In this document: positions 8,510 through 45,617 of the stretch, piece after piece
Layout of the letters: each line of letters starts with the position of its first letter
How positions within the stretch are numbered: position 1 is the stretch's first letter
Source: Microvelia longipes
Taxonomy: Eukaryota > Arthropoda > Insecta > Hemiptera > Veliidae
Assembly: GCA_018340805.1 (NCBI GenBank)
Contig: JACMZG010001913.1
Location: 21,126,793-21,190,792, forward strand
Direction: 5' to 3'
Length of the DNA stretch: 64,000 bases
The notes under the pieces: model-generated
Databases searched by the model: none
What the model saw: only the letters and a program-made list of their open reading frames with translations
Told to the model about the DNA's origin: nothing
Position numbers and translations under genes: made by a program

Positions 8510-8571
8510 TAAAATTTTATTTTTAAATAAAAAGATTAGTTACACAAAAGTCCTTTATTTTTAATATATAT

Positions 8572-8616
8572 AATAACTAAGCTTTCGACTAAAAATTAGT
8601 CATCATCAGAGCTTAA
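8572..8616 (-). ncRNA. Hammerhead-ribozyme-like motif
   Basis: Minus strand: CTGATGA at 8609-8603, one extra U, stem II GACTA/TAGTC (5 bp, loop ATTTT), GAAA at 8586-8583, a 2-bp AG/CU stem III and a U at the cleavage position. Stem I closes with U-A, C-G, G-U and A-U pairs. The core bases are intact. Confidence 0.65.
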
Positions 8617-8641
8617 ATAAATAAATAAATAAATAAATAAA
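8613..8641. repeat. (AAAT)n microsatellite
   Basis: Seven uninterrupted aaat/ataa units just inside the left hammerhead of P1. Confidence 0.9.
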
Positions 8642-9045
8642 CCATTTATTGCAGATTATACATTGTTTTTACATCTTCGTGGTTTTTTTTACCCAATTAA
8701 ACTGCAAATCGGCGCATAGCCGTGGTTACCCTTTTAAGGGTTGAGTTGCTTCCTGTTCATCATCAGAGCTTAACAAATATAAAATATAAAAAATTACAAC
8801 AATTTTACAGACTACTTCATATTGCACCTTGGTATGTTTTGGTAAGCTATGTTTAAAAAACCGTTAAAAACTGTTACATTGAATTTTAATTTTAATTAAT
8901 TAAAATTAATTAAAAAATTAATTAAAATTTTAATTTTCAATGTAACAGTTTTTAACGGGTTTTTAAACATAGCTTACCAAAACATACCAAGGTGCAATAT
9001 GAAGTAGTCTGTAAAATTGTATTTTCATTTTATATTTTATATTTG

Positions 9046-9093
9046 TTAAACTCTGATAATGACTAATTTTTAGTCGAAAGCTTAGTTATTATT
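9046..9093 (+). ncRNA. Degenerate hammerhead-like motif
   Basis: Mirror copy in the right arm of P1. The core reads CTGATAA at 9053-9059 instead of CTGATGA, so conserved G8 is changed and the motif is predicted inactive. Stem II and GAAA are kept. Confidence 0.5.
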
Positions 9094-9192
9094 ATATATT
9101 AAAAAATAAAGGACTTTTGTGTAAATAATCTGTTTTTATTTATATATTGTTTTATAAGTCCACAAATAAGAAACTTCTTAAAATTTTATTTT

Positions 9193-10414
9193 ATTTTATT
9201 TTACAATAAACAATTGTCGTTGACTAAACAATTGTTTAGTCAATGAGATATAAAATATATTTTTATATTTTTTGTCTCGCCTAGAATCTTTCTGATTAAA
9301 TTAAGAGAAGAACCCTAAAATCCATTTAAAGAAAGTCATCAATACATTTTGTCGACTAGATAAAGTAGGATTTATTTTAATCTATAGACTACAGATATAA
9401 AAATAGATAGATGTACAAAATTATTTACTTTTTTGTGAGATTTGTTGACAATAAAAATAATTGACGAACTCAAATAATCTTAAAGTTTCTGTTCAATTGA
9501 TTCATTCTGAAACGATACTGAAAAACAAAATCTAAATCTAGTTGAAAATTTCTCAAGAAACGAAAACAATTGTTTAGAAACTTGATTGTCCTTTGTTTCG
9601 AGTTCTCGAAAACATCCAACTTTGGGTAAAGTTTGGAAAACTTTGAAATTATGAATAAATATAAAGGGTTTCTTTGTTAAAGAGAAAATTTATTTGAGTA
9701 GAAATCAATGACTTTGTGAAAAGCGCTTTTCAGCGAGGTTATCCGCCTTGTGTTCATTTTATATATTTTAATTGCTTGTGTATTAAGTCTTACCTGAAAT
9801 ACTACACCCTAAAATATCCAAAAAATACTAAAAAGGCCCAAAGCAACTCAAAATTTATTAGTTATGTTTAAATTTCTCTTTTTAATTTGTTTCCTATTCT
9901 ATCTAACTATTGACATACTTTGCTAACACTTGTTGTCTTATAATAAATGGATTGTATCGACTTTGGGAGGTTGCTCTCTTACAACTTTGTATGTCAAAGG
10001 CTAAGTACTGGTTTCTTTTCATAAATCTGACATTATACCTTAAGTACATTAGTTAAACATATTTGCTAAAAGAGAATTATGCTTTTATATTATTCTCTTC
10101 ACATTCATTTTGACTAACATGGATTTTTCATTTAAAATGTAAATTCATCAGTATTAATTCTTTATTTATTTATAAACTTTATATAATGCTTTAGTACAAG
10201 TTTTATACTTCTGTATGAAATCCTTACACTGGGAGACATCGTGTTTTTAGATTTGTTTAAATTGTTAGTTAAAATGCTTGCCAAAAAGTTGCAAAATTTG
10301 TTTATGCTAGGTTTTGCAAATAGATATATGATAGGTAAGTCTAATTTGTTAATTAATTAATTAAAAAGTTCATGGAAAAGACGAGTTTAAGTTTGTTAAA
10401 CTTTATAATGATTC
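9193..10414. other. No gene recognised; contains a 24-bp perfect palindrome
   Basis: AT-rich DNA. The palindrome TTGACTAAACAATTGTTTAG plus TCAA spans 9220-9243 with no spacer. Confidence 0.5.
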
Positions 10415-10613
10415 AAATCAATCTTGGGTCTAACAAAGCTATCGGTTCGTGAAACAAAACAAAATATTTGCTTTGTTTGGAATCATTTCCAAATGGTTTA
10501 TCTTTGTGTCCAGGTCATTACTTTTCACTTAATTGACCTGATACTAGTAATAGGTCTATTGTATTTATTTATTGCTTTAGTACCTGGCCCACTAATCTCT
10601 TATTTCTTTACAC
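10415..10613 (+). repeat. Unnamed dispersed repeat, copy 1
   Basis: Shares aatcttgggtctaacaaagc, ggttcgtg, 'tttgtgtccaggtcattac', cacttaattgacctgat and 'ttttagtacctggccca'-like blocks with 11183-11209 and 11664-11815. It shows the empty target site of snapback P2 and is cut on the right by the MITE at 10616. Confidence 0.7.
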
Positions 10614-10615
10614 TA

Positions 10616-11022
10616 CAGTCTATCGTTTAGTTTAAAAATCCCTAAGGCCATAAGTATTTTGGGGATTGACCAATCAGAGAAGCCGCTGCCAACCTTTCAC
10701 TTAAAAAGAGAAAAAAAATCCCTACCACAATAACCGCTGTAGGGAAAAAACCTTCTTGCCGGCAATCCTTCACTTTGTTTGTGTTTCTTCTTTTGTTTAC
10801 ATCGTTTTGAAAACTACTTTCAAATTAATCTTAAAATTATATTTTAAAATAAAACTACACAAAAGAAATGTAAAAAAAACATCGCCAAGAAAATACGGTT
10901 AAAATAACTTAATTTGTGTACATAGTTTTTTCCGCTCTCTTCTTGCGGGGATTTTTTTTTCTAAGAATCAGTGGGTGTCTAAACTGACCTGTCAAGATTT
11001 TTTTAAACAAAACGATAGACTG
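10616..11022. mobile_element. TA-flanked MITE, Tc1/mariner-like
   Basis: 407-bp non-coding element with terminal inverted repeats CAGTCTATCGTTTAGTTTAA / TTAAACAAAACGATAGACTG and a TA on each side (10614-10615, 11023-11024). TA-flanked CAGT ends are typical of Tc1/mariner relatives. An inner pair of aatccctacc / ggggattttt blocks adds hairpin potential. No transposase frame is present, so it is non-autonomous. Confidence 0.72.
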
Positions 11023-11254
11023 TAATAAACACATTTTGATTAAATACACGGATTATATTTTAAATCTTATCCACAAATCTGAGAGTCAGACACATTAATT
11101 TTTTTAACTTATTATTATTAATTTGACATTAACCAATAGCTTGATAATGATAGAGATCATATTTTACTAAGATCCTCTGGTTAAATTAACTCTTGGGTTT
11201 AACTAAGCTATAATGATAAATAAAAGAGTCTCTCCACTTAATTACTTTATTAAA

Positions 11255-11305
11255 AAACAAAGCCGGCTTTCAACCCCAAAAGGTCATCATCAGTGCCTAA
11301 CAAAC
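11255..11305 (-). ncRNA. Hammerhead-ribozyme-like motif
   Basis: Mirror image of the motif at 11530: CTGATGA on the minus strand at 11293-11287, stem II GACC/GGTT, GAAA, and palindromic stem III AGCC-GGCU with no loop. Confidence 0.65.
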
Positions 11306-11529
11306 AAATAAATATAACATAATAATAAACAACAAGTAAATAAAAAGTAAATACAAAACGTACTAGTATACATAAAGAATGTTACGGTATGTTTTTTTAA
11401 GACTGCTTTTTTTTTTTTTAACTTTTTTTAAACCTTTTTTGACGTATGTTTAAGTTTTATTTTTGTTGATTTCTTTATGTATACTAGGTTTTGTTTTGTA
11501 TATTTTATTTATTTATTTATTTTGTTTTT

Positions 11530-11590
11530 ATTATTGTTAGGCACTGATGATGACCTTTTGGGGTTGAAAGCCGGCTTTGTTTTTTAATAA
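11530..11590 (+). ncRNA. Hammerhead-ribozyme-like motif
   Basis: CTGATGA at 11544-11550, extra U, stem II GACC/GGUU, GAAA at 11566-11569, and palindromic stem III AGCC/GGCU (11569-11576). The predicted scissile bond follows U11577. Stem I pairs 11530-11543 with 11578-11590 (5 bp, a 2-nt mismatch, then 6 bp). It reads outward toward the element end. Confidence 0.7.
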
Positions 11591-11815
11591 AAAGTAATTA
11601 AGTGAGAGAGACTCTTTTATTTATCATTATACGATGAACTCCTAGCGCTACCGTTTTGAATGATTAACTAAGCTGTTGGTTCGCGGTTTTTTTAGAATTA
11701 TTTTGTACTTTATTCTCATTGTGTCCAGACCATTACTTAGCACTTGATTGATCTGATCTAGATTATAGATTTATTAATATGATTATTTATTACTTTTGTA
11801 CCTGGCCAATTCTAG

Positions 11816-12449
11816 CCCAATCTAACTCGTACAGTTTATTTCCCGGACTTGACCTAAATATCAGGCTCGGTGTCTATGTGTTTATTATTCATATTTTGGC
11901 ATTATGGATGTTTCCCTGTGCGGAGAATCTTAAGTTTAGCTCTTATAGTTTTTCTTCTTTTCTACATATAGTTGGTCCTGAAACGTGGACATTTGCTGAC
12001 ATAGTTTTTGTTTGCGCGATGTTTTTTTTCGAAATATGTCTCTACTATACGAAATTTAAAGTATATTTATTATTACCCTAGCAGTGTCCCCAGGATGTAA
12101 TTTATCCTCTAATTTTAACTTTTTAATTAAAACGGGTCTCGGTTAGTTATAAATCAAAATGTTACTTTTGATTGTTAAAAGTAAACATTTATAAAATTTA
12201 ACTTCAAGATGTAGAGTAAAGCATAATATATAAGTTGTTTGAACGTCCTTGGTAAGAATTCGACCTACTGAACGAGTGTTGCTGGATTGCATAATATAAT
12301 CCCTCCCATCTCTACTACACTCCTTTTTCTCTCTCTACTTACTCTCTCACACACACACTTACACATTCTTGTTAGACTTGGCTCGCTCTCAATCTTAATC
12401 TTGTTCTTTTATTTTATTTAGATAGTTTTTTATCTCTTTTGTATCAACT
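11816..12449. other. Upstream region of tRNA-Ala; nothing else recognised
   Basis: AT-rich, with a pyrimidine-rich stretch (ctctctactcactctctcac-like, 12325-12350) about 100 bp before the tRNA. Confidence 0.4.
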
Positions 12450-12522
12450 GGGGGCGTAGCTCAGATGGTAGAGCGCTCGCTTAGCATGCGAGAGGTACCG
12501 GGATCGATGCCCGGCGCCTCCA
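12450..12522 (+). tRNA. tRNA-Ala (anticodon AGC)
   Basis: A complete 73-nt nuclear tRNA gene without intron. The acceptor stem GGGGGCG pairs with CGCCTCC (one G-U), followed by discriminator A. The D arm is GCTC/GAGC; the anticodon stem CTCGC/GCGAG encloses TTAGCAT with AGC at 12483-12485, reading GCU and GCC by wobble after A34 is converted to inosine. The T stem CCGGG/CCCGG encloses ATCGATG. Having A instead of T at position 54 is a known trait of eukaryotic tRNA-Ala. Box A (TAGCTCAGATGG) and box B (GGGATCGATGCCC) are intact, and a 9-T polymerase III terminator lies at 12529-12537. All 73 bases are identical to the minus-strand gene at 37640. Confidence 0.98.
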
Positions 12523-12528
12523 AGTATA

Positions 12529-12537
12529 TTTTTTTTT
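12529..12537 (+). terminator. RNA polymerase III terminator of tRNA-Ala
   Basis: Nine consecutive T residues beginning 7 bp after the discriminator base. Confidence 0.85.
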
Positions 12538-12648
12538 ATTTAATTCATCCAATGCCAAACTTATTTTCTGGAGTCTGACTTTATTTATGTGATAAATACC
12601 TTAATATATAGATAGTGAGAACATAAGTGACAATTATAATTTTTACCT

Positions 12649-12886
12649 GTAGTCTTCTTTAATTCGCCATCCCTTGCAGCTGGTGGTACCTATGGTCTTC
12701 TTTAATTCGCCATCCCTTGCAGCTGATGGTACCTATAGTCTTCTTTAATTCCATCCCTTGCAGCTGGTGGTACCTATAGTCTTCTTTAATTCGCCATCCC
12801 TTGCAGCTGATGGTACTTATGGTCTTCTTTAATTCACCATCCCTTGCAGCTGATGGTACCTATAGTCTTCTTTAATTCACTATCTC
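12649..12886. repeat. 43-bp minisatellite, about 5.5 units
   Basis: Unit contains tcttctttaattcgccatcc then cttgcagctgatggtaccta; aattcgccat anchors fall at 12661, 12704, 12747 (2-bp deletion), 12788, 12831 and 12874. It lies about 110 bp downstream of the tRNA gene. Confidence 0.93.
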
Positions 12887-13039
12887 TAAGAGCTACATCA
12901 TTTGGTTTTTGATCATAAAAATTGTTAATTTTGTTAGTTTGTTTTGTTTATAAATTTATTTGTTTACTTGCTCTTATTTATAAAGAGTAAGGCTGTAACT
13001 CTTTTGCCATCAATTGTTGAGTATTACTCTATTGTTGAG

Positions 13040-13432
13040 TTCTAGGATATTCTTTATAACTTGAGCAGTTACTCAATTATCAAGCACTGCTCATAACTCA
13101 TTTTTTCTATATTTCTCAAAGGAAATGCGATAAAACCTTTGAAGAAAAAGCACTACTGAGCATTAAACTAGTACAAATAATGGTGTACACTGCCTATTCT
13201 AGAGGCATTTTTTTGAATAACCAAAAGGATAATTATGCGCATTTTTTTAAAAAAAAATACTAATAATGACTTTTTAAGTAGTGCTAATAATTGAGTAACT
13301 GCTTTAGTTATATAGCATAAACCGGAACCTTAAGCAAAAAAAGAATGGTTAAGCACAGAAACACGCATTCCAAAGGAAATTTGCCCGACTTGCGGACCAC
13401 CGTGTCTGAATTTTCACTCTATAAATAAAAAA
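13040..13432. mobile_element. GGTGGTCCGC-TIR foldback, left-truncated copy
   Basis: Shares 'cttgagcagttactcaatta', the gcataaaccggaaccttaag block, the cacgcattccaaaggaaatt block and the end cggaccaccgtgtctgaat with the better copy at 25553. The left TIR is missing. Inverted blocks (agcagttactcaatt and aattgagtaactgct) make it self-complementary. Confidence 0.68.
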
Positions 13433-13539
13433 CCTAAGATTCGTTTCACTTAAACCTATATTGGGGAATGTTTTTAAATGTTCATTATGATATTTGGGTT
13501 TTACTTTGTAAGCTCATAAGCTTTGGGTTAATCGACTTT

Positions 13540-13600
13540 GAGAATAAGTGAAGTCCTTATTTGTAAAAAAAATGTTTCAAGGTACCCTGAACCCGAATTT
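13540..13600 (+). repeat. R5S repeat, 3' end only
   Basis: gagaataagtgaagtcc followed by 'caaggtaccctgaacccgaa' and a T-run. Confidence 0.55.
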
Positions 13601-13734
13601 TTTATTAGTGTTTCTGCCATGTCGAAGTGTTTGTGTTAAACATCGTCCAATTTTATTTAACCCTCCCCTTTTAAAAGTTTTATAAAACAAGAAATAAATG
13701 ACAAAAAACTATTGTCTGAAATATAAAAGAAACA

Positions 13735-13830
13735 CAAAAAAATCGGGTACGGGGTACGTCGGAACTTACGCTCATCCTCACTTCTTTGAACTAAGCGGAT
13801 TTGGCCCGTATCCTATATAAAATTGTCGGA
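13735..13830 (-). repeat. R5S repeat, 3' end only, reverse
   Basis: aaaaaaatcgggtacggggt, cggaacttacgctcatcctc and ttcttt blocks. It faces the fragment at 13540. Confidence 0.6.
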
Positions 13831-13834
13831 GAAG

Positions 13835-14699
13835 TTCAATAAAAGTAATGAGCAATTTTTATAAATATGGTATTATTAGTATTTGTGACTGTTTTATATC
13901 ATTATTACAAATTTGAGACACTAGATTGTAATAATAACAATAATTGTAATTATACCAACAAGTAGGAAGTTTTTATTCTCTAGGGTCATTTAGTGTCTCA
14001 AAGTTTTACAAATTTATTAATATGTAACCCAAAAAATAAAATTAGCTTTATTTCAGCTAAATATTTCTACACTAGACAGTAAAATACTTGTTATTTTTTT
14101 AAAATATAATAATACATAATTTTTTTACTAGACTATGCTACTTAATGGTACTTAAGAGCGGAAGGGGGGGGGGGGGTACAATACACAGGAAAAGCATTTA
14201 AATTCATTGTTAGCCAAGTCAGAAAACGTTTTAGCAATTATTCTTGTGTAAAATGAGTTAGAAAATAGAAAAAAAATTGAGACTAGATTTTTTATATAAT
14301 GTGTACTATTAAATAAATATTTATGTATGCATATGCAGTGTTATTAATAATCAAATATATTTAATACTAGCCTATTTTTCATAGCTTTTAGATGTTGTAA
14401 CAAAAATATATCCTCGCCTTTGTACTATTTGTTTAACGATCATATATTTTGTTTTACATAGATTGGTTGCTTAGTGGAGAAAGATTTCTCGAAAATATTT
14501 CATAGAGTCTAAAGGAATTGGAGAACTCCTTTCTCCAATTATATCTGGAACAAATGAACCGATTTTCTAAGACATTTCCCATTAGTGCTGTAAATCAAAC
14601 GATTTTATTATCTAGCGTAGAATATAGTAGCCTTATACGTAAAAAAAATAAAAATACTATTCTTTTAAAAATATTTTTAATATTTTTTTTTCTTTTTTA
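13835..14699. other. No gene recognised; 13-G run
   Basis: AT-rich DNA. A run of 13 G lies at 14164-14176. The + strand frame at 14518-14700 has no recognisable domain. Confidence 0.5.
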
Positions 14700-17740: not shown

Positions 17741-17745
17741 AGTAT

Positions 17746-17747
<2 letters not shown>

Positions 17748-17784
<37 letters not shown>

Positions 17785-22810: not shown

Positions 22811-23299
22811 GTTTTGATTCATGAGGAAGCCGATTGATTGGCTAAATTCTGAGAAGAAACCTCATTCGTTGTACCATAACCTGGCTTTTCCTACTTAGTT
22901 ACCCATGCTAAGACACTGGTTAATAAACACTCTAAAACTTAACCGGCGCTTTGATGGTTGCTGCCAAGCAAAGGTTTTATTTCTGGTACAATTTTAAGAA
23001 ATTGTCAGTTGAAGAAACACATATTAAACATATTAAAACTTAAGGTATAAACTCACTATCTTACTCTCCCATCTGTGGGCATTATGAGTCGACAGATTTT
23101 TGTCTGCTAGCTGAAAGTGAGGCTTATACTTGTTGGTTGGAATTTGTGTAAAGAAGAGTTATTCTCTTAGTTGGAGCGATACCCTCCATCGACCTTTTCA
23201 AAAGAATCTTGGTAGATATATGATGGATTGAGCTGTGGAGTGCTATGATAAGAAGAAATAAAACTAAACAAGTTTTCGTCTCTCCACTCATTATAATTA

Positions 23300-23356
23300 C
23301 TAATAACAAAGCCGACTTTCAACCGTTAACGGTCATCATCAGTGCCGGTGATTATT
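23300..23356 (-). ncRNA. Hammerhead-ribozyme-like motif
   Basis: Mirror image of the motif at 23473, with CTGATGA on the minus strand at 23342-23336 and GAAA at 23320-23317. Confidence 0.65.
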
Positions 23357-23472
23357 AAAAAAGTAGATCAGTAGTCTACCAGTGAGTCTAATGGCACAAA
23401 CTTGACAAGTTTGTAAACAGTGGTCAAGTTTGTACCATTAGACTCACTGGTAGACTACTGATCTACTTTTTT

Positions 23473-23530
23473 AATAATCACCGGCACTGATGATGACCGT
23501 TAACGGTTGAAAGTCGGCTTTGTTATTAGT
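23473..23530 (+). ncRNA. Hammerhead-ribozyme-like motif
   Basis: CTGATGA at 23487-23493, extra U, stem II GACCG/CGGUU with loop UUAA, GAAA at 23509-23512, stem III AGUC/GGCU (23512-23519). The predicted scissile bond follows U23520. Stem I begins A-U, C-G, G-U, G-U. Confidence 0.7.
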
Positions 23531-23887
23531 AATTATAATGAGTGAAGAGACGAAAACTTGTTTAGTTTTATTTCTTCTAATCTTGGTAGAGGTAGTGTAG
23601 GCTAAGGAATCGGAGCTGGCAATATGCAACCTGGATGGGGTTGCCTATAAGTGTTAATGACAAAAAAGTTCATTTGTCGAAAATAAGTCATTCTTCATAA
23701 AAGCTCCTGCATGTTTTTAAACTAAGATTTTTAATTTTTTACTGTAGACTCAAAAACTGAAATTTTTGTGAAATGGACAAAAAGTAAAGTAGGCTTAATT
23801 TTCACTGTTCGAAAAAAAATTATTCTTTATTAAATTGTTTAATTGTCCCCCTGAGACAATTTTTCCATAAACAATTTAATTTTTTTT

Positions 23888-26924: not shown

Positions 26925-28466
26925 TTTTTTTTATACCCTCTTTCTCATACTCAGACCAATATAATGTTAATTTATAAAAAAATAGTTTTTGATTAAACTG
27001 CGTTCAGTGCTATTTTAGGTTTCGAAACTTTACAAGAGGGTTTCTTACCCATTATGTTGACCATTCGGCCTGTGTTATGTTGTTTATCTTCTTGTGCCAA
27101 ACTTGCTAGAGTAAAACTTGGATACTAAAACTGATTGAGTTATATTAAATTTATAAAATCTTAGTTTTAGTTTATGGATAGTTGAAATTACGTGACTATT
27201 GTAATAGGTATAAATCTATAATTTGTAAAGTTGTATAGGTTAAACCAGAATAACTGATGTATTGCTTTGCGCTTTGAATAAATAATTATCTTAACCTCAC
27301 TAAGTAACTTAAGTTTTCCTCTAAATAAAAAAAAACTTTTATTTGTCTACATAATTAGGTTAAAGAAAACTTGAAGAAAGTTAAAAAGTAAAATAAAACG
27401 AATCTACAATTGCAGAAAAGTTTAGAAAGGGAATAATAAAAGCGATGTATAATAGGTAAACGTGAGACAAAGCTGCTTGGCTGGAATACTAAATAACTTC
27501 GTGGAAGCTATTAACAGTAATGTGAAGTTTTTCAACTGTCATTTCGATCCATAGAAACTGTTGATGAAAATTTTATAATTAAAATGTATCAAACGTTTAC
27601 CTGACGCGTATGTTGGTTTGAGGTGTAGGACATGTTTGATTAGATGTTCGAATTAAAGGAGCATGCAATAGATTCAGTCGTGGTATTGATCCGGTGATGT
27701 TTTGGACATGTCTGCTTACCTTTCTCTCTATTTTTTGACTCGTGGTTGAATTGTGATCAAAATCAGATTACCATGTCATATTGATGGACATTTCCGAAAA
27801 AGGATTTTATATCAAATGTATCATTTCTTCAGGTAAAGCGTTTTAATTTTTTCTCATTTTAAAAAGCTTTACTATTTCAAAGAGAAAAAAATAATATTAC
27901 TGAAATAGTGCAAATTCGAATATTATTTTTATTTTTTTCTCATTTATACCGTAGTTAAGAGCGACGATGCCTTGACATTGAATTTAATTGATAACAATTT
28001 TCCTTCCTTGATAACAATTAATAACAAATTCCTATAACATCGAATAAAAGACACAAATTAAATTATAATAACAAGTAATACCCACATTTAATAAGGTTTA
28101 TATCAAAATTTAATTTCAAAATATACCAACTACTAAAATATTTTTCAAAAGGCATTTAATTAGACATGGAGTATCGAGTCTAGAGTGGTTGTAAAATGAA
28201 AGCTTTGCGGGTTTCCTATTGCTCCAATTCTCAATAGCCTCCTCTATTCATTAAAAATTTCATTCTATCTTATTAATTTTGAATAATACGCGTATCGAAA
28301 ATTTATTTGTGTGATGTTATACTTTATTTGATTCTTTCAAGTATCATAATTGAAATGTCATGGCTTTTGTATTGGCATTTTATTTCAAATTGTTCTTAGT
28401 ATATTAATTTAATGTACTAGTATGTTTGCTTGATTATGATTAATACGACACGATTAAGATTATAGT
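26421..28466. other. No gene; (TA)n tract and R5S tip
   Basis: 2 kb without a recognisable gene. It contains a (TA)n tract at 26854-26919 and a lone R5S left tip (ttctcatttataccgtagtt) at 27937-27956. Confidence 0.5.
26854..26919. repeat. (TA)n microsatellite
   Basis: About 33 TA units with one interruption. Confidence 0.97.
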
Positions 28467-28887
28467 CCAAGAGCCCAGGGGTGTTTTGTTAATAAAAAGT
28501 GTAATCGCTGGAACCGGTCTCAATTTTTCGTAAATACCTTCCTGAACAAGGATCTGCAATTCTGCCGACTCGTATCGGATGGGTGTCCCAGGCAGAACGC
28601 ACTTTAGGGGTCAAAGGTTCTGCCTGGGACACCCATCTGATACGAGTCGGCAGAATTGCAGATCCTTGTTCAGGAAGGTATTTACGAAAATTAAACCCGT
28701 TTCCAGCCATTACACTTTTTATTAACTTCGGTGGTAAATTTGACATGTAAAGTGCGTTCTGCCTGGGACACCCATCCGATACGAGTCGGCAGAATTTCAG
28801 ATCCTTGTTCAGGAAGATATTTACGAAAAATTAAACCCGTATCCAGCCATTACACTTTTTATTTACAAAACACCCCTGGGCTCTTGG
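28467..28887. mobile_element. Foldback with three copies of one module
   Basis: Ends CCAAGAGCCCAGGGGTGTTT and its inverse define a 421-bp element. A module of about 100 bp (ttctgcctgggacacccatc, gatacgagtcggcagaatt, cagatccttgttcaggaag, attaaacccgt) occurs three times: inverted at about 28490-28600, direct at 28618-28725 and direct at 28757-28862. A clean target duplication was not found. The 85-codon minus frame across it is a by-product. Confidence 0.82.
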
Positions 28888-29454
28888 TCTATTACTGTTA
28901 AATTAAATTAAATATATTAGAAATATTAGTTCCAATATTATTAAATTAAATATAATTAAATAAAATATTAGATCAAATTATGATCACTATATTATCATTA
29001 TCATCACACAATCCACTCTAATCATACCAAAGGTTAGGTTACTTCTTAACTTTCCTTCTGTCAATCTGACTCTGTTAATAATCATATTGTCACAACTAAA
29101 AATACCCTCTCCTTCTCTCCAGATGAAGAGACAACGAGTTTATCCCTAACAATTTTTGATTTCACTCCAGTGTTTTTCTGTTTGATTCCTTTTTTAATTT
29201 AACTATGCTTGATAATCTCTTTCTTGTTGCTCAAACTAGGTCTGTTTGAATACTTATTTTAGTCACCTTATTTTTTTTTTTTTTTTTTATTTATTTAGTT
29301 AAGTACGACTACGAAACAATTGTTATTAGTACTTCAGTTATAAGTTATTTTATCGTGGGATAATTAGAAGGAGAAAATATCCATTGATATCACTCCATAG
29401 CTTAAGATTGAAAAAAATTTGAAGGACGATTCCAACATCATCTTTTTTATATCA
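28888..29454. other. No gene; 18-T run
   Basis: AT-rich sequence with an 18-T run at 29271-29288. Confidence 0.45.
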
Positions 29455-29589
29455 AGTTATCTGAAGACGGATTATTCAGGTAAAATATCGGTTTCAAATT
29501 TTTAGAGCAACACAATACATTTCCTTTATACCTGCGATGTAATCGAAGAATCAGCTACCATCGATACTTGCTGTTGGATGTGAATATCT

Positions 29590-29630
29590 CTGGACTGGTT
29601 TTCATCATAACGCCATCATCAGCAGGCGGG
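29590..29630 (-). ncRNA. Degenerate hammerhead-like motif
   Basis: CTGATGA intact on the minus strand (29622-29616) with a CUG/CAG stem I. The stem II 3' side reads GAT instead of GCC, and stem III carries an extra A and an A for G. Confidence 0.45.
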
Positions 29631-29805
29631 GCAACACTGGAGCTCTCAACTAATAAAGTTATATCAGTGAATAACTTCTAGTCTCAATGAGCACGATAAG
29701 CCCTCTGAAGATTCATCATTTATCTTCAGAGGGCTCGTCATGCTCATTGAGACTAGATGTTATTCACTGATGTAACTTTATTAGTTGAGAGCTCGAGTGT
29801 TGCCC

Positions 29806-29850
29806 GCCTTCTGATGATGGCGTTATGCCGAAACCGGTCCAGTATCGACG
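29806..29850 (+). ncRNA. Hammerhead-ribozyme-like motif, GUC cleavage triplet
   Basis: CTGATGA at 29811-29817, extra U, stem II GGC/GCC (loop GUUAU), GAAA at 29830-29833, palindromic stem III ACC/GGU and the canonical GUC triplet ending at 29839. The first stem I pair is U-C here, whereas the left arm has the matching G-C. Confidence 0.65.
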
Positions 29851-29950
29851 GTAGCTGATTCTCCAATTACATCTTTAACTTGCGGTAATCACAACCTTTT
29901 TAATTTTACCTACGATGTATTGAAGGAAAAGTAAAAAAAGTATAAATGTG

Positions 29951-31280: not shown

Positions 31281-31288
31281 TTTTAAGC

Positions 31289-31711
31289 ATATATCATTTG
31301 ATACTACCGAGTTTTGCAAAACATGAATAGTTGACACAATATAATTGTGCGAGAGACACCTAGGAAATGTAACAAGCAAAATGCAATGCTACATCTGGGA
31401 ACTGTTCCATCATTCGACATTCGTCATCATTGATGGCTCGACATAATGTCATGTCCCACTCTGTTTCGTTACGTCTAACTCATCAGGGCGCCGACAGAGC
31501 CTGAACTCACTCTGACCTTCAATTAATTCCGAAGAATATAATGTGAAGTACTTACCAGAGACGAGCGGTGCTCTCTTACCGCCATCATGACATTATGTCG
31601 AGCCATCAATGATGACGAATGTCGAATGATGGAACAGTTCCCAGATGTAGCATTGCATTTTGCTTGTTACATTTCCTAGGTGTCTCTCGCACAATTATAT
31701 TGTGTCAATTG
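31289..31711. mobile_element. Snapback element P8 (GATACTACCG type)
   Basis: Arms 31331-31454 and 31587-31709 appear perfect over about 123 bp around a 132-bp centre. An extension of about 41 bp lies on the left only (31289-31329, tatcatttgatactaccgag). An 8-bp target duplication TTTTAAGC lies at 31281-31288 and 31712-31719. A diverged relative lies at 61620, and tips occur at 2640 and 18060. A hammerhead core is not intact (only tgatgacgaatgtcgaat). Confidence 0.8.
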
Positions 31712-31719
31712 TTTTAAGC

Positions 31720-32530: not shown

Positions 32531-32592
32531 CTGTTTACAGAGTCTGTAAACAGTTCTGATGATGGCGTAAAGTCGAAGCCGGTAAGATATAA
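32531..32592 (+). ncRNA. Weak hammerhead-like motif beside a hairpin
   Basis: CTGTTTACAG/CTGTAAACAG hairpin (32531-32553), then CTGATGA (32556-32562), stem II GGC/GUC, and GAAG instead of GAAA, with a GCC/GGU stem III. Probably the outer part of a decayed snapback element inside the MITE. Confidence 0.4.
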
Positions 32593-32759
32593 TTTTTTAT
32601 ACTATTGTGGTTGACAATATACTAATTGTTTTCAATTCTAGTGGTTTTTATAACTTACTCCACTTAGTTCGTACTTCCGAACAAAGTTAAAGCAACACTT
32701 AATTGATAACTTTAAAGACAATAATGAAATAATAAAACAATAATACATTAATGATACAA

Positions 32760-35639: not shown

Positions 35640-35965
35640 TACGTTATTTGGCAAAGATATATAAAGTGATCGTTATTTTTCGTGCTATGAATAATATATT
35701 TGAGAAAGAAATATTAAGTGATCGTTATTTTTCTTTATATGAATAATATATTTGACAAAGGAATATTAAGTGATCGTTATTTTTCTTGCTATGAATAATA
35801 CATTTGACAAAGGAATATTAAGTGATCGTTATTTTTCTTGCTATGAATAATACATTTGGCAAAGGAATATTTAGTGATCGTTATTATCCTTGCTATGAAT
35901 AATACATTTGACAAAGGAATATTAAGTGATCGTTATTTTTCTTGCTATGAATAATGCATTTGACT
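35640..35965. repeat. 52-bp minisatellite, 6 units
   Basis: agtgatcgttatttttcttg plus ctatgaataatacatttgac plus aaaggaatatta; gtgatcg falls at 35666, 35718, 35770, 35822, 35874 and 35926, an exact 52-bp period. Confidence 0.97.
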
Positions 35966-36928: not shown

Positions 36929-36936
36929 TGATGTTG

Positions 36937-37154
36937 AATGATTAGAATGAGCGTGAATGAAGTCCACTAAAAATAATGAAAACTACAAAGTCTCTCCACA
37001 CAGCAAACTTTATTGGCAAAGCGCTTTCAACCTACAAAGAGGCCATCATCAGTGCAATACCTACAAACAAGTATAAGAAAATAAAAGGTTGAAAGCTCTT
37101 TGCCAATAAAGTTTTGTTTTGTGGAGAGACTTCGTAGTTTTCATTATTAACACA
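36937..37154. mobile_element. Short hammerhead-tipped snapback element, P5
   Basis: Palindrome 36972-37148 with a 35-bp extension on the left only (36937-36971) and an 8-bp target duplication TGATGTTG (36929-36936, 37155-37162). The right arm is shortened and retains only the ggttgaaagc side of the hammerhead. At 218 bp it is the smallest copy. Confidence 0.78.
37005..37062 (-). ncRNA. Hammerhead-ribozyme-like motif
   Basis: Minus strand CTGATGA (37052-37046), extra U, stem II GGCCU/AGGUU, GAAA (37028-37025), loopless stem III AGC/GCU and U at the cleavage position. Stem I begins A-U, C-G, G-C. Confidence 0.65.
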
Positions 37155-37223
37155 TGATGTTGTTACGATGAAGGAAGTAAAGGTTGGGGAAGTGGGGAGT
37201 GTCCATCTTGGCTTCTTTATTTC

Positions 37224-37408
<185 letters not shown>

Positions 37409-37639: not shown

Positions 37640-37712
37640 TGGAGGCGCCGGGCATCGATCCCGGTACCTCTCGCATGCTAAGCGAGCGCTCTACCATCTG
37701 AGCTACGCCCCC
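37640..37712 (-). tRNA. tRNA-Ala (anticodon AGC), second copy
   Basis: Complete 73-nt intronless tRNA gene on the minus strand, identical over its full length to the gene at 12450. It has the same GGGGGCG acceptor strand, anticodon AGC (complement of GCT at 37677-37679), T loop ATCGATG and discriminator A. Five T residues on the minus strand (A-run 37630-37634) follow the gene and can end polymerase III transcription. Flanking sequence on either side is unrelated to that of the first gene, so the identity probably reflects selection or gene conversion rather than a recent large duplication. Both copies should be functional. Confidence 0.98.
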
Positions 37713-38103: not shown

Positions 38104-38173
38104 AACAGAGTGAAAAATCTGGTACGGGGTACCTCAGAACTTTTCCTCGTCATATCGAGTTCGCTATGCTTAT

Positions 38174-38350: not shown

Positions 38351-38529
38351 CGTCATCAGAATATACAATTCGATAAATTAATACTGCAGCACGTCTTCGG
38401 ACTCGCTTCGCTATTCCTCTGACCACGCTTGATGCTGCTTATCTTTTATGATCCAATTAAAATCGTGGATATACTTGTCGTACAGTTAAAATCCGGATTT
38501 GTTTGGTATGTGATTTGATAAAAATTAAA

Positions 38530-38799
38530 AGACAAAAATTTTATAGGGACCTCTATTTTAAATATTCAAGCTTCTTTTGAGGAGGAATAGGTCCTAATTA
38601 ATACAAAAAAAACTAATTTTGCCGAGCTTTCGATATGTTACTCTAGTTGTTGTCCTAACATCTAGTGTAAACCACCATGTAACTGTTTTTGTTATTATTT
38701 GATATGTTAAGCCTTGAAAAGATTAAATTATATCGAAAGCTCGGCAAAATTAGTTTTTTTTGTATTAATTAGGACCTATTCCTCCTCAAAAGCTTGAAT
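38530..38799. mobile_element. Snapback element P6
   Basis: Palindrome 38562-38799 (arms 38563-38637 and 38730-38799), a 32-bp extension on the left only (38530-38561), and the 12-bp target duplication ATAAAAATTAAA (38518-38529, 38800-38811). gataaaaattgaactaatg is the undisturbed R5S sequence at this point. The inner arm ends with atcgaaagctcggc, the GAAA side of a hammerhead, but no CTGATGA is left. Confidence 0.82.
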
Positions 38800-39134
38800 A
38801 TAAAAATTAAACTAATGTTGATGAAACTTGAAACAAATATGTTAGTCTTATACATGGCTACATGCATCGCCAATCTTAATCAGATCGCAACATTTTGTTT
38901 GCGCATTTGGGTTAAAGACGTCATAAAAAAATATTTTCCGAAGAGTCCAATTAAACCTAAGTTTCAGCTCTCTAGCATAAATACACTGGGAGCTAATATG
39001 ATGACAGACACAAATAGCTAGACAACTTTGTTAAAACCACTCAGAAGGCCTCAAAAATTCCCGTTTCGGATTTTTTGCAAACACAATACTTTTCCCATGT
39101 ACATATCTACGGTATAAATGAGTAAAAGTAAAAA

Positions 39135-39535: not shown

Positions 39536-39935
39536 TTTGTTGCTGCTTCCCTATTATTTGTTTTAATTTTCATTTCTTTCCTATTATTTGTTTTAATTTT
39601 CATTTCTTTCCTATTATTTGTTTTAATTTTTATTTCTTCTCTTTTATTTGTTTTAATTTTCATTTCTTCCCTTTTATTTGTTTTAATTTTTTTTTTTTAC
39701 CTATTATCTGTTTTAATTTTTATTTCTTCTATTTTATTTGTTTTAATTTTTATTTCTTCCCTTTTATTTGATTTAATTTTTATATCTTCCCTTTTATTGT
39801 TTTAATTTTTATTTCTTCCCTTTCCTTCCCTTTTATTTGTTTTAATTTTTATTTCTTCCCTTTTATTTCCTTTAATTTTCATTGCTTCCCTTTTATTTGT
39901 TTTAATTTTTATCCTTTCCCTTTAATTTGTATTAT
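39536..39935. repeat. 30-bp T-rich minisatellite, about 13 units
   Basis: Unit cttcccttttatttgtttta plus atttttattt in a 30-bp register (small indels near 39800-39840). Strong strand asymmetry: almost no G on the + strand for 400 bp. Confidence 0.95.
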
Positions 39936-40339
39936 CGCTTCCCTATTATTTTTTGGAATTATTATTGCATCCCTATCACTTATTATAAGAGACGAAAATA
40001 TTGTGTCGCCTGCATTTTAATTAAATCTCCAAGTATTGATGAGGTCCTAAAAATCGCGAAATTGTTAATGAATGAAAACAAATGTAAGTACTAACGAAGG
40101 AAAGAACTGATTTCTAAGAAAATTAATGTAACTATTTTCATTATGGCGCCGTCTGAAAATTTAAAAAAACTCTTAACCGTCTTAGACGAATAACAAGAAA
40201 ATTTCGGCTTGTTGGCCGCTGTGCAACCACTCGTACCAGTTTGTCGTATTTCTAGTTATTTGTAAGTGGCTAAAACTAATATTTGTAATTTTTTGAATTA
40301 TTGTGAGTTAATGACGTCTCACACTTTTTATAAACTCTA
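39936..40339. other. No gene recognised
   Basis: AT-rich DNA between the T-rich array and the (TA)n-bearing repeat. Confidence 0.4.
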
Positions 40340-40620
<281 letters not shown>

Positions 40621-41929
40621 CTATAAAACCTTAACCAAATCTTTGGGTAGGACAGGTTATGCAATGTTTAAATTTACAATGCGGACTCACTTTGTTAGCG
40701 AATTTCATTTTGAATAAATTCGCTAAAGTAGTAGGTTGCATGACAGGAGTTGGACAAAGTTCGAAACCCATTCCATAAAATACCCTGATACAGATTTCGG
40801 ATTCCCGCAATGATACCTCCCTCCCTTCTCTTCTATTGGCGAATCTTTTCATAACAAATTCGCTCATGTATTCTTATCTAAAACAAATTACTTTTAAATC
40901 AAAGAATTTTAACTTCTTAAGATACTTCAAATACTTGAGACAAACTTAAATTTTATATTTTCTTGAAAGATTAGAAATTATGCCTTGTTCTCATATTCTA
41001 TTTTCAATTATAATCCCCACTTGAGACTCCCACTTTAAATATTTCCCGACGAACTTTACCTTAGTAAAATCTCAGTGTATTAGCGAGGTGATGTAAAGAA
41101 GATAAAATTCTTACAAAAAGATTTCATTCAAAATAAACAACATGAGCATGTAATAAGTTTAGATAAGAAATTAAACTTTGACGTACATGCATTGAAATAC
41201 ATGTAAGAAAATGTTTCTTGTTATATTTAAGAAAGTAACGACTGGATATGTTATTATCTTACATAATATTATCTTTTAATATTTTAATAAAAAGTTAAAA
41301 CAATATGAAAACTCTGCTTCGAATATGAAACCAATTTTCCCTATATTATTTCTCAAAAGCAATGAAATGATTCTGGTGAGGAGGTTTTTATGTTGGGTAA
41401 ATTTTCTTAGAAAATCTTAAATTCTTATTTTATTTATAACATCTCGTTTAGTGTTACATTTGTATGAAAACTATAAATAATTGCGCGAAGGTCTGAGAGA
41501 AGGGCGAATTTTTTTCTTAAAAGCGTGTTTTTCGCTCTACTATCCATTTCTTGCATTTGTTTCATAACCTGAGTAGTCATTGCTACTTGTTGATCAATTT
41601 TTCCGATATTTTCTAAGGTTTCAAAGGACTCATTTAAAAGGTCAGTTTAAGGCTATTTTAAAAATTTGTTGTGCATATCTTTTGAAATAAGCTGAAAAAT
41701 GAATAATACGTAGTAATGCTACTGATCAGGTTATGAAAATAAGTAAGGAACAGACTGCTGAGCTATGAAACACGCTTTTTGAAGGAAATTACCCTGGCTT
41801 TAGGGAGGAATTTTTAAGCAGAATTAATGTGTAGAATACTAGTAACTTGTAAACTTTATATCTCCAAGCCGATGCCTAAACCACTTAGACTCTGAGATTG
41901 TGGGTCTGAAATGCCTTTTACAGTTCCTC
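40621..41929. other. No gene recognised
   Basis: Contains three attcgct/agcgaat words (40697, 40729, 40857) of the kind found beside the (TA)n repeat and near 55890, suggesting a decayed dispersed element. The 78-codon minus frame at 40631-40867 has no domain. Confidence 0.4.
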
Positions 41930-42260
41930 ACCTACTACCGTAGGTATAAGGAAAAGTTTTTGTTCGCCATAAAAATCCAAAACCGAGGTTTCACCATAAT
42001 TATCCGTTTCAGGCATTTTCATGACGTTCTGAGTGGTTTTGATCATGCTGTTTATGTATGTGTCTGTTTACGTATGACTGTGTATATATGTCTGTTTCAC
42101 GCATAACTCCCATTGCATTTATGCCAAAGAATTGAAACTTGATACAAAAATGAAGACTTCAAGTCCAGTTGTGCTGCTCGGAAGATGATATTTTTTTCTG
42201 ACTACCATAACCTATCATGCAGACTTATTAAAAATTTTAAAAAATCGTTAAAAATCGAAA
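41930..42260 (+). repeat. R5S repeat, left third
   Basis: accgtaggtataaggaaaag, aaatccaaaaccgaggtttc, gacgttctgagtggttttga and 'aagaattgaaacttgataca' blocks. Confidence 0.72.
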
Positions 42261-42715
42261 CTTTTAACTCTCGAGTAAACATTAGGCACAAATGTACATC
42301 TATTCATTAAATTTAATTTTATTATTGGTCACCATTTTAAAAATATTGAGTTTTTACTCTAAAATTTTAACGTCCAATAGATTTTAATTTAGTTTCTGCT
42401 ATCGGACATATCGTCCAATTTTTGTAATGAAATTTATAATGAATTAGTAGTAGAATTTCTCTCCCACTATTAAAAATTTATTGAATTTTAGTTTTTAGTA
42501 AACACACTTACACTCATCAATACCACATTAGCCTTAAGGTTATCATGACATTCTGAGAACTAGCTGAGCCGAAGTCATAACACCCTAGACTGAAGTTAAT
42601 AATTTTATTCTGTGGTCGAGCTTAGCAAGACTGTAGTAATAATGCCTTAAGCTTTGGATACCATGCCATTTTGAAGACGAGCGAAGCGAGAAAAGTGCTG
42701 AGTTGAGTTGCATAT
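42261..42715. repeat. Decayed R5S middle and end
   Basis: Mostly unrecognisable, but 42663-42705 (ttttgaagacgagcgaagcg) is an R5S end unit in the right order, so this is probably the rest of the copy at 41930. Confidence 0.45.
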
Positions 42716-42750
42716 TATATATATATATATAATATTATATATATTTTTTT
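42716..42750. repeat. Short (TA)n tract
   Basis: About 30 bp of TA with one AATATT interruption. Confidence 0.9.
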
Positions 42751-42999
42751 TCTTCTTCATAATATATTAAAATGTCAACTCCAGACGGTATATAATGTGA
42801 ATTTTAATGAGAGTATTTAGGGAGAAATGAATCACTTTTTGCCCCCAAGGGACTTTCGTTGTGATTTTTCGTGACGGTTAATATTTCTCGGTAAACTTTT
42901 TTGGTAAACTTTTCAAGATCTGTTTTTATTTAAATAAGGAAAAATGAGTTGTGGAGTTTCAAGTAATGAAATAAAACAGAGTCTTTCCACTAATGATAT

Positions 43000-43060
43000 A
43001 TATTTGACATAGCCAGCTTTCAATCTTAACAGATCATCATCAGTGCCTAACCAACAAAGT
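43000..43060 (-). ncRNA. Hammerhead-ribozyme-like motif of the left arm
   Basis: Mirror copy of the motif at 45509: CTGATGA on the minus strand at 43043-43037, with stem II GATCT/AGATT and GAAA. Confidence 0.7.
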
Positions 43061-43272
43061 AAAAAATATATTACAAAAATACTCTAAATAAAAATAAATA
43101 CTAAAATAAAAATAAATACAATATAATGAGATGAATTAAAATAAAATAGGGAAGCAAAATAAAAATATAGACCAAATAAAAAAAACAAATAAAGTAAACG
43201 AAATAAATTAAAATATAAAACATTAAATGTATAAAAGTAAAAATAACTACCGGCGAGCAGCGAAGAAAAGAG

Positions 43273-44163
43273 TTAGGAGACAGCGGTTACAGTTTTGTCT
43301 AGAGGTTTGTAGCTGACTGACGGGAACCGAGTAGCCGCCGCCAACGCGCTTTGTATTAGCGTTATCTCGCCACTTTCGCCCCTCTTATTAAGTGCCTTAT
43401 CACCATTTTCTTTTACGTTCTTTAAAATCTCCACATTTTCCAAAAAGTTCATAGTATTTCCTTTCTGTGTCATGTGGAGGAAAGCAGCCTCATGCTGAAA
43501 GTTAACATGGCCTTCCTCATGTATGTGCTGGTAGAACTTACTGTTTGTTCGCCGAAAGTGCTCTTTTAGTCTCGTAAAGTAAGCTCTACCAGTTTGGCCA
43601 ACATATGTGCTGTTACACCCTCCACACCTCAAAGAATAAACACCACTCTTCTTGCTGGAGTCAATTTTATCTTTGGCATGAGATAAAGAGCTACGAAGTG
43701 AGTTAAGGCTCTTATAACCCACACCAAACCCGTTTCTTTCCATAACTCTACCAATTCTCTCAGACACAAGCCCCATATAAGGTATCGAACGCCAACCTTT
43801 CACTTCTGATGCAGGAGCATCTTCAGTGCCTATTTGGCGTAACGCTTGCTTCCTCTTGTATCTATGAATAGTTTTATCTACTATTGCAGCTTTATATCCA
43901 TTGGAAGTAGCTATGTGATATATATTAGCTAGCTCTATAGCGTACGCTTCAGGTTCTAAGGGCACAGCTAACAACCTATTAACAAAAGCATAAATAGCCG
44001 CCATCTTGTGGGTCCAAGGATGAAAAGAGGTGAAAGGAATTATGGAGTCTGTGGTGGTAGGCTTCCTGTAAATACCAAATGAAAGACTGCCCTCTGACCT
44101 GGTGATATTAAGGTCTAAGTAATTTAATGTACCATTAACTTCTACTTCAAAAGTAAAGTTCAT
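43273..44163 (-). CDS. Penelope-like RT C-terminus with GIY-YIG endonuclease (5'-truncated)
   Basis: 296 residues encoding the downstream half of a Penelope-like polyprotein, which reverse-transcribes element RNA and nicks target DNA. Residues 1-65 hold the RT segment after the catalytic YVDD: LNYLDLNITR (13-22), FGIYRKPTTT (29-38) and SFHPWTHK (46-53), all typical of the family. The endonuclease spans about 173-245: GVY 174-176, YVG 187-189, arginines at 193 and 198, and candidate metal-binding glutamate E242. C180/C183 with nearby histidines fit the CCHH knuckle of Penelope endonucleases. The frame has no internal stop or frameshift, unlike its + strand twin. The annotated Met is internal to the original protein, because the arm ends shortly upstream at about 44200. 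No promoter was seen. Confident of the family; function of this fragment alone is doubtful. Confidence 0.9.
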   Translation of the reverse strand: MNFTFEVEVNGTLNYLDLNITRSEGSLSFGIYRKPTTTDSIIPFTSFHPWTHKMAAIYAFVNRLLAVPLEPEAYAIELANIYHIATSNGYKAAIVDKTIHRYKRKQALRQIGTEDAPASEVKGWRSIPYMGLVSERIGRVMERNGFGVGYKSLNSLRSSLSHAKDKIDSSKKSGVYSLRCGGCNSTYVGQTGRAYFTRLKEHFRRTNSKFYQHIHEEGHVNFQHEAAFLHMTQKGNTMNFLENVEILKNVKENGDKALNKRGESGEITLIQSALAAATRFPSVSYKPLDKTVTAVS

Positions 44164-44208
44164 GTTAGGCAGGCATTCATTAAGGTAATTTACAAAGGAA
44201 ATTACAAA

Positions 44209-45287
44209 TTAGGGTAATTTGCTGCGGAAATTTTTATGCACCATTTTTACAAACAATTTATTTTAAGACGCAGCAATCCATTTCGTAGTAATATTCTTAC
44301 TTGGAAACGTTACGTAGACGATGTATTCTGTATCTGGAATGGTACATTAGACCAACTCAACGCCTTTGTAAATTACCTTAATGAATGCCTGCCTAACATG
44401 AACTTTACTTTTGAAGTAGAAGTTAATGGTACATTAAATTACTTAGACCTTAATATCACCAGGTCAGAGGGCAGTCTTTCATTTGGTATTTACAGGAAGC
44501 CTACCACCACAGACTCCATAATTCCTTTCACCTCTTTTCATCCTTGGACCCACAAGATGGCGGCTATTTATGCTTTTGTTAATAGGTTGTTAGCTGTGCC
44601 CTTAGAACCTGAAGCGTACGCTATAGAGCTAGCTAATATATATCACATAGCTACTTCCAATGGATATAAAGCTGCAATAGTAGATAAAACTATTCATAGA
44701 TACAAGAGGAAGCAAGCGTTACGCCAAATAGGCACTGAAGATGCTCCTGCATCAGAAGTGAAAGGTTGGCGTTCGATACCTTATATGGGGCTTGTGTCTG
44801 AGAGAATTGGTAGAGTTATGGAAAGAAACGGGTTTGGTGTGGGTTATAAGAGCCTTAACTCACTTCGTAGCTCTTTATCTCATGCCAAAGATAAATTGAC
44901 TCCAGCAAGAAGAGTGGTGTTTATTCTTTGAGGTGTGGAGGGTGTAACAGCACATATGTTGGCCAAACTGGTAGAGCTTACTTTACGAGACTAAAAGAGC
45001 ACTTTCGGCGAACAAACAGTAAGTTCTACCAGCACATACATGAGGAAGGCCATGTTAACTTTCAGCATGAGGCTGCTTTCCTCCACATGACACAGAAAGG
45101 AAATACTATGAACTTTTTGGAAAATGTGGAGATTTTAAAGAACGTAAAAGAAAATGGTGATAAGGCACTTAATAAGAGGGGCGAAAGTGGCGAGATAACG
45201 CTAATACAAAGCGCGTTGGCGGCGGCTACTCGGTTCCCGTCAGTCAGCTACAAACCTCTAGACAAAACTGTAACCGCTGTCTCCTAA
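44209..45287 (+). pseudogene. Penelope-like RT (YVDD) plus GIY-YIG, frameshifted
   Basis: The right arm and centre encode the same protein as the minus arm but begin further upstream. FAAEIFMHHF (from about 44218) corresponds to the conserved A-x-I-F-M region, and KRYVDDVF (from ATG 44236, residues 24-31) holds the catalytic YxDD motif. An in-frame TAA immediately before FAAEIF, and the missing RT N-terminus, show that this end is truncated. At about 44894 one A is lost from the AAAA run present in the minus arm. The frame then shifts and stops at 44931, just before the endonuclease. From 44928 the correct frame resumes and runs to 45287 with protein sequence identical to the minus arm (CGGC, YVG, LEHF-type motifs). 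One deletion therefore separates RT from endonuclease in this arm. Confidence 0.9.
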
Positions 45288-45508
45288 CTCTTTTCTTCGC
45301 TGCTCGCCGGTAGTTATTTTTACTTTTATACATTTAATGTTTTATATTTTAATTTATTTCGTTTACTTTATTTGTTTTTTTTATTTGGTCTATATTTTTA
45401 TTTTGCTTCCCTATTTTATTTTAATTCATCTCATTATATTGTATTTATTTTTATTTTAGTATTTATTTTTATATTATTTAGAGTATTTTTTGTAATATAT
45501 TTTTTACT

Positions 45509-45568
45509 TTGTTGGTTAGGCACTGATGATGATCTGTTAAGATTGAAAGCTGGCTATGTCAAATATAT
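45509..45568 (+). ncRNA. Hammerhead-ribozyme-like motif of the right arm
   Basis: CTGATGA at 45523-45529, extra U, stem II GAUCU/AGAUU with loop GUUA, GAAA at 45545-45548, stem III AGCU/GGCU (45548-45555) and A45556 at the cleavage position. Stem I pairs UUAGGCA with UGUCAAA (4 bp, one mismatch, 2 bp). Located about 40 bp from the end of the Penelope-like element. Confidence 0.75.
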
Positions 45569-45617
45569 ATCATTAGTGGAAAGACTCTGTTTTATTTCAT
45601 TTCATTGTTTTTATTTA

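Follow-up and report, generated by a model that had tools for sequence, protein, structure and literature searches.

Eight palindromic insertions in a stretch of DNA from the insect Microvelia longipes (Hemiptera, Veliidae) are ordinary in kind, being probable insertions by the machinery of Penelope-like elements (PLEs). Their novelty lies in their extent, in how two start sites pair up inside one insertion, and in a retrozyme-like family that shares their plan; the last would link retrozymes to PLE machinery. The stretch, hereafter the window, comprises 64,000 nucleotides (assembly GCA_018340805.1, contig JACMZG010001913.1, positions 21,126,793 to 21,190,792). The eight palindromes (named by their first position, Table 1) were probably all inserted by PLE machinery, through two-sided priming at sites A and B on two template units, with the RNA of the family of insertion 31289-31711 being handled in trans.

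The original prediction had delimited eight insertions by target duplications of 8-14 bp, and had described a one-sided extension of 32-41 bp beyond each palindrome. Re-reading of the bounds, flank duplications, and arm offsets from arm alignments bears this out. The duplications are exact in seven insertions (8-14 bp), while that of 29542-29907 matches at 11 of 12 bases (ACCTGCGATGTA / ACCTACGATGTA), next to a left junction with 6 bp of microhomology. One side extends 32-42 bp beyond the palindrome in each insertion, and three insertions have 3-6 extra bases on the opposite side too. With random right flanks from the same genome (400 trials each), one-sided geometry with a duplication as long as the one observed arises in 0 to 5.25% of trials for each of the seven exact elements. 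For the window palindromes at 28462-28892, 46465-46524, 50016-50072, and 56798-56843, no flank duplication longer than 7 bp was found; the first of these is a nested palindrome of about 430 bp, whose arms have no hammerhead core. Against this, other inverted repeats in the window do show chance or array-derived duplications of at least 8 bp, and one without a known hammerhead (2985-4378) nears the one-sided geometry, with arms 67% identical, a 10 bp duplication, and offsets of 4 and 49.

The CTGATGAT motifs, previously taken for the tips of the palindromes, are instead recognizable as hammerhead-ribozyme cores, internal to the palindrome rather than terminal, and the motif is lacking in 38530-38799. 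CTGATGA occurs 18 times in the window, versus 5.3 expected. A hammerhead descriptor (CTGATGA, stem II, GAAA, self-complementary stem III, and stem I) matches at eight places in the window and at none in 100 dinucleotide shuffles. The Rfam type III model matches the hammerhead of insertion 31289-31711 at 37 bits (E 2.4e-4), short of its curated cut-off of 48.5. Another sequence with the look of a decayed hammerhead, CTGATGATGGCGTAAAGTCGAAGCCGG, lies outside the eight insertions, at 32556-32600. Minimal PLE hammerheads cleaving as dimers were reportedly described by Lunse et al. in 2017, and the window cores, here read from sequence alone, likewise have a self-complementary stem III (e.g., AGCCGGCT, AGTCGGCT, AGCTGGCT, or AGCGCT). 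This also fits PLE hammerheads reported without helix III and possibly acting as dimers, according to PMC7761336. The tailless arm stops about 57-70 nt past GAAA in the six insertions with both readable, and 38 nt past it in 29542; the tail adds 32-42 nt beyond the tailless-arm end.

The involvement of Penelope-type machinery, as originally proposed, is supported by the reverse transcriptase (RT) piece with a YVDD motif (read by eye) and the GIY-YIG-like domain of insertion 42933-45605, together with the hammerheads, inverted arms, one-sided tails, and 8-14 bp target duplications of the set. The first 145 or so bases of the 237-aa frame of 42933-45605 fall in 44199-44362, a stretch absent from the left arm. 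Six protein homologs of the PLE frame were found, the best at 40% identity, and the nearest named protein comes from the firefly Pyrocoelia pectoralis (36% identity). Homologs P0001 and P0005 carry RVT_1; the window's own RT piece matched no Pfam family in the profile search. The GIY-YIG-like domain scores below the cut-off of PF01541 (E 0.0013, 19.4 bits, cut-off 22.6), which homolog P0003 exceeds.

Some of the small palindromes are best read as belonging to PLE families, as 5'-truncated PLE copies, because their families adjoin PLE frames elsewhere. A PLE RT frame in locus L035, with 34% identity to the window PLE over 140 aa, is bordered by the 29542 family, and a PLE endonuclease frame in L040, with 42% identity over 115 aa, stands upstream of a 36937-like ribozyme 3' region. 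By eye, the arms of C505:1293292 and C505:1998133 consist of the end of the 42933 PLE frame (near 43250-43320) followed by the ribozyme. Parent elements of 11210, 23217, 8524, and 38530 were not found among the loci examined. The earlier idea of an undescribed swarm of tiny non-autonomous elements is only partly supported: the 31289 family is truly non-autonomous, while other small palindromes look like 5'-truncated PLE copies.

Table 1. Palindromic insertions of the window and open reading frames of insertion 42933-45605.
Feature	Positions	Strand	Description	Bases past palindrome	Tail	Target duplication
Insertion 1	8524-9178	-	Left side with tandem hammerhead cores 8603 and 8760, inverted right side; one descriptor match	36 right	9143-9178	14 bp, 8510-8523 / 9179-9192
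Insertion 2	11210-11663	+	Outward hammerheads 11293 (-) and 11544 (+); two descriptor matches	33 right	11631-11663	11 bp, 11199-11209 / 11664-11674
Insertion 3	23217-23578	-	Near-perfect palindrome; hammerheads 23342 (-) and 23487 (+); two descriptor matches	34 left	23217-23250	12 bp, 23205-23216 / 23579-23590
Insertion 4	29542-29907	+	Two decayed hammerheads, cores 29616 (-) and 29811 (+)	34 to 40 right (microhomology-dependent)	29874-29907	12 bp, imperfect, 29530-29541 / 29908-29919
Insertion 5	31289-31711	-	Member of 315-nt tandem hammerhead (retrozyme-like) family; hammerhead 31458-31500 (-)	42 left, 3 opposite	31289-31330	8 bp, 31281-31288 / 31712-31719
Insertion 6	36937-37154	-	Hammerhead 37052 (-); right arm begins within ribozyme; one descriptor match	35 left, 6 opposite	36937-36971	8 bp, 36929-36936 / 37155-37162
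Insertion 7	38530-38799	-	Arms start at GAAA half of ribozyme (only half present); core lost	34 left	38530-38563	12 bp, 38518-38529 / 38800-38811
Insertion 8	42933-45605	-	PLE 3' part as two inverted copies, arms 42965-44198 and 44363-45601, 99.4% identical; hammerheads 43043 (-) and 45523 (+); two descriptor matches	32 left, 4 opposite	42933-42964	12 bp, 42921-42932 / 45606-45617
311-aa frame, left arm	43273-44208	-	RT end, linker, GIY-YIG-like domain			
237-aa frame, right arm	44218-44931	+	RT motif YVDD			
130-aa frame, right arm	44895-45287	+	GIY-YIG-like domain			

The same plan recurs elsewhere in the genome. Inverted repeats homologous to the window arms were listed in 40 fetched loci without regard to their flanks, giving 26 rows, several per insertion. 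Rows that were inner parts of insertions already counted were merged (L004:5187, L006:4619, L017:5618, and L023:1559), L028:1378 and L031:1459 were excluded as not being arm pairs, L035 and L040 were not scored, L027 and L028:4837 were counted once as a single duplicated locus, and L024:2769 was taken from the non-family rows, since it has outward cores. Among the 18 resolvable insertions, 16 are one-sided and two symmetric. An 8-15 bp duplication accompanies the one-sided form in 13 cases (L004, L006, L007, L008, L011, L017, L024:655, L024:2769, L027, L030, L031, L033, and L039); in L023, L024:1475, and L038, the one-sided family tail is present and a duplication was not found. A 10-bp duplication of L038 was dropped as spurious, its tail having proved to be on the opposite side. 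For a fair coin, 16 of 18 has a probability of about 7e-4, and the 24 of 26 obtained with the window included one of 5e-6, although the window's eight had been picked by the original prediction. Extension and duplication, thus, recur together in independent copies (13/18), which speaks for a common plan rather than coincidence. Tails of the same family match across separate sites (L030 and 11210, L031 and 29542, L039 and 8524, L017 and 31289), and the tail is, therefore, part of the mobile RNA. A duplication of at least 8 bp was also found at 56 of 127 inverted repeats without window-arm homology. Tandem arrays (L007, L008) hold many of these 56, and the one-sided range is reached by some (e.g., L032, L024:929, and L030:1123). 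Single short duplications are, therefore, weak evidence, which is not true of long ones. The random-flank control is invalid for L030 (value 1.0), where the duplication sits within the aligned arm. Locus L009 (820-3100) contains a 2.3 kb palindromic alignment with arms 95% identical and no outward hammerhead core.

At the scale of the whole assembly (664.6 Mb, 1470 contigs), CTGATGAT is counted 51,413 times, versus 12,424 for the reversed word. Core pairs at 120-180 bp inner distance are strongly biased in orientation, with 1780 outward and 98 inward pairs for a density expectation of 60.6. Outward pairs were inspected by letters at 23 of 25 printed places (C505:1999297 was omitted for having the same letters as 1998133, and C505:1456902 as a core-rich simple repeat). 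Twenty of the 23 are palindromic over at least 50 nt per arm, and in 13 the central loop does not exceed 14 nt. The palindrome centres vary within several families, as seen for C505:1823146 versus C505:1870710, for C496:282768, C505:3064371, and C505:3297391, and in the 31289 family; most palindromes are, therefore, separate events.

The 31289 family is, judged by its sequence, a real non-autonomous and non-coding tandem hammerhead element. Its unit measures 315 nt, with a longest stop-free run of 84 aa (unit tripled), and in L017 two Rfam hammerheads follow each other in tandem at a distance of 316 nt, with a third one inverted. The aligned arms of the family end, within a few bases, at just two places, ...TTGTGTCAA (site A) and ...AAATGATATA (site B), which lie inside the tandem unit at a distance of 42 nt from each other. 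Ends A and B are paired in the window copy, L004, L006, and L017, while A is paired with A in L028. A 15-base word across A has 7276 matches in the genome (control 0), the arm word before A 7741 (control 9), and the unit-to-unit word across B 3187 (control 5). The listed unit junctions form arrays spaced 305-318 bp, including outward-facing inverted arrays of 7 then 4 junctions (C505:5653927-5657515) and of 8 then 7 (C505:5933037-5937932). Inward pairs of unit junctions at one spacing class number 0 genome-wide, a count made for the inward orientation alone; where the word lists overlap, 17 neighbouring arm pairs face outward and one inward. Further fragments of the 31289-ribozyme family, 76-97% identical, lie in the window at 61617-62056 and 2639-2677. 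The 23217 family is represented in L028 (1429-1675) by a direct rather than palindromic copy, which ends at site A and has 98% identity across the ribozyme region.

With its non-coding tandem units of about 315 nt, a hammerhead in each, and duplications longer than 4 bp, the 31289 family resembles metazoan retrozymes (PMC7229834). Nevertheless, animal retrozymes are described with type I hammerheads (PMC7229834), while the 31289 hammerhead matches the Rfam model Hammerhead_3 (type III) below its cut-off and has a six-base self-complementary stem I, so that it is not of type I. The family would, thus, be retrozyme-like in its working, yet outside the type I animal retrozyme family. It also differs from metazoan retrozymes by ending at two PLE-like start sites and by its inverted arrangement; the word 'inverted' has 0 occurrences in the text of PMC7229834. 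The RNA of the 31289 family seems to ride on PLE machinery, being inserted in trans by that plan. Retrozymes whose inverted ends are of the PLE type were not seen described in a limited set of texts (PMC11167929, PMC3846280, PMC7229834, PMC7761336, PMC8490949, PMC8969392, and PMC12910113).

The mechanism that we infer starts from a template RNA carrying a minimal hammerhead and two RT start sites, A and B, some 60 and some 95 nt downstream of GAAA. A staggered cut of both target strands would yield the 8-15 bp duplications. Each target 3' end would then serve as a primer at an internal site of the RNA; in most insertions one end would use A and its partner B, a pairing that would leave the extra 30-40 bp tail on one side. 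Both cDNAs would run inward, usually stopping early, and would be joined where short inverted complementarity permits annealing, giving an outward-facing palindrome. The templates may be two RNAs, or a single multimeric or circular RNA may supply both units. In vitro, a PLE protein cuts and extends both target strands, and its RT starts at two adjacent internal sites, the genomic tail being the stretch between them (PMC11167929). A helix straddling site A (GTGGAG/CTCCAC, GGACTT/AAGTCC, GGACCT/AGGTCC, GCAAGT/ACTTGC, and GTAGAA/TTCTAC) reached P 0.045 in an exploratory permutation over 13 families, and, still exploratory, P 0.020 over 14 (L038 tail side changed, L024:655 added); single folds were unremarkable.

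Two templates are preferred to a single self-primed cDNA because in three insertions the tailed and tailless arms each hold private sequence, which one such cDNA cannot give. In 42933-45605, the tailless arm holds 164 nt of the PLE frame that the tailed arm lacks, and 8524-9178 and L004 have an extra tandem unit on their tailless side. The arms of C505:1998133 differ, by eye, at three diagnostic sites, one set being as in 42933 and the other as in C505:1293292. The self-priming alternative, implied by the word 'snapback' in the original prediction, holds that one cDNA or antisense RNA folds back and is copied, the second copy ending 34 nt short to give the tailless side. It draws on the short central loops of 13 of the 23 palindromes, on the presence of palindromes at the inverted junction together with a published proposal for rotifer PLEs (PMC3846280), and on the longer tailed side of 31289, L006, and L017, as the model needs. 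It is, nevertheless, unlikely, as the second copy would need to stop at site A repeatedly, and as a general model it was rejected, being contradicted by 42933, 8524, and L004 unless later changes are invoked. Still less probable is that the palindrome itself is the spreading unit, with a palindromic copy giving rise to a hairpin RNA that is then inserted, so that copies share their centre. C439:277577 and C496:243749 do have a common central sequence, in opposite orientation, while in other families the centres vary from copy to copy. As for foldback transposons or DNA transposons of the miniature inverted-repeat (MITE) type, moved by a transposase recognizing the inverted repeat, palindromes with flanking duplications are what they would produce. 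Nevertheless, the duplications vary in length (8-15 bp) rather than being fixed, the inverted repeats are not symmetric (one end is offset by about 34 bp), the ends fall inside a tandem ribozyme unit, and hammerheads and a PLE frame lie inside; this origin was rejected as scarcely credible.

Several observations weigh against two-sided priming at A and B. Short central loops are equally expected from self-priming, the extra tandem units of 8524 and L004 may conceivably have arisen by duplication after insertion, and mixed-subfamily arms were found at 0 places by exact pattern, a count without a denominator. Two insertions are symmetric and tailless, L022 (with a 12-bp duplication) and L028:5738-6056 (duplication not found). 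Among the 17 outward 31289-family pairs, the tail word is found on one side in seven, on both in six (three flagged tandem), and on neither in four. This word census is coarse, since mutations change tail to none and tandem units change none to tail; it does not show one-sidedness above half in the family, while the direct readings do show a one-sided excess. Given the symmetric L022 and L028 and this census, exactly one tailed end is not proven as a strict rule.

Within two-sided priming, a more specific version can be entertained tentatively, at somewhat less than even chances: the retrozymes here would be inserted by PLE machinery via two-sided, rolling-circle target-primed reverse transcription, and the same reaction on PLE mRNA would give the short palindromes. 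Each of the two RT subunits of a dimer would begin on a hammerhead RNA, circular or multimeric, usually with one subunit at A and its partner at B; one or more turns would produce outward inverted tandem arrays such as C505:5933037-5937932. Such two-direction arrays would be expected from repeated turns on a circle, and multimeric linear RNA would serve equally.

The plan recognized in the original prediction is, in fact, a known PLE signature, PLE hammerheads and inverted ends of PLEs with a tail on one side having been published already (PMC3846280, PMC7761336). In one rotifer PLE, ends occur in both direct and inverted form, one of the inverted ends carries a 31-bp tail, and the duplication is 9 bp long (PMC3846280). 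The window elements resemble GIY-YIG PLEs (Penelope/Poseidon type, such as Pen2a_Av of Adineta vaga and PAc of Anolis) in their RT and putative GIY-YIG-like domain, in their inverted or tandem ends with a one-sided 31-40 bp tail and short duplications (PMC3846280, PMC11167929), and in the hammerhead near the start sites or in the pseudo-LTR (long terminal repeat), as seen in 42933-45605 (PMC7761336). Unlike in known PLEs, the inverted form dominates here as very short palindromes, with no fewer than 1780 outward pairs of cores for one spacing class, and unlike in the account given for rotifer PLEs (PMC3846280), self-priming is contradicted by three insertions.

Elsewhere in the window, there are numerous short tandem arrays with unrelated units of 30-150 bp (5825-6091, 35646-35964, 59877-60170, and others), and two tRNA genes, at 12450-12522 (+) and 37640-37712 (-), 25 kb apart on opposite strands, with equal Rfam scores (58 bits) and identical printed sequence.

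As to how PLEs insert, in vitro work revealed two start sites and the cutting of both strands, and genomic copies such as these reveal which ends pair within one insertion. The 31289 family constitutes a thousand-copy substrate, whose junctions offer a direct record of the proposed, unproven mobilization of animal retrozymes by PLEs. For genome annotation, scars of PLEs or retrozymes may account for many of the repeats labelled 'palindromic MITE-like' in genomes of this kind.

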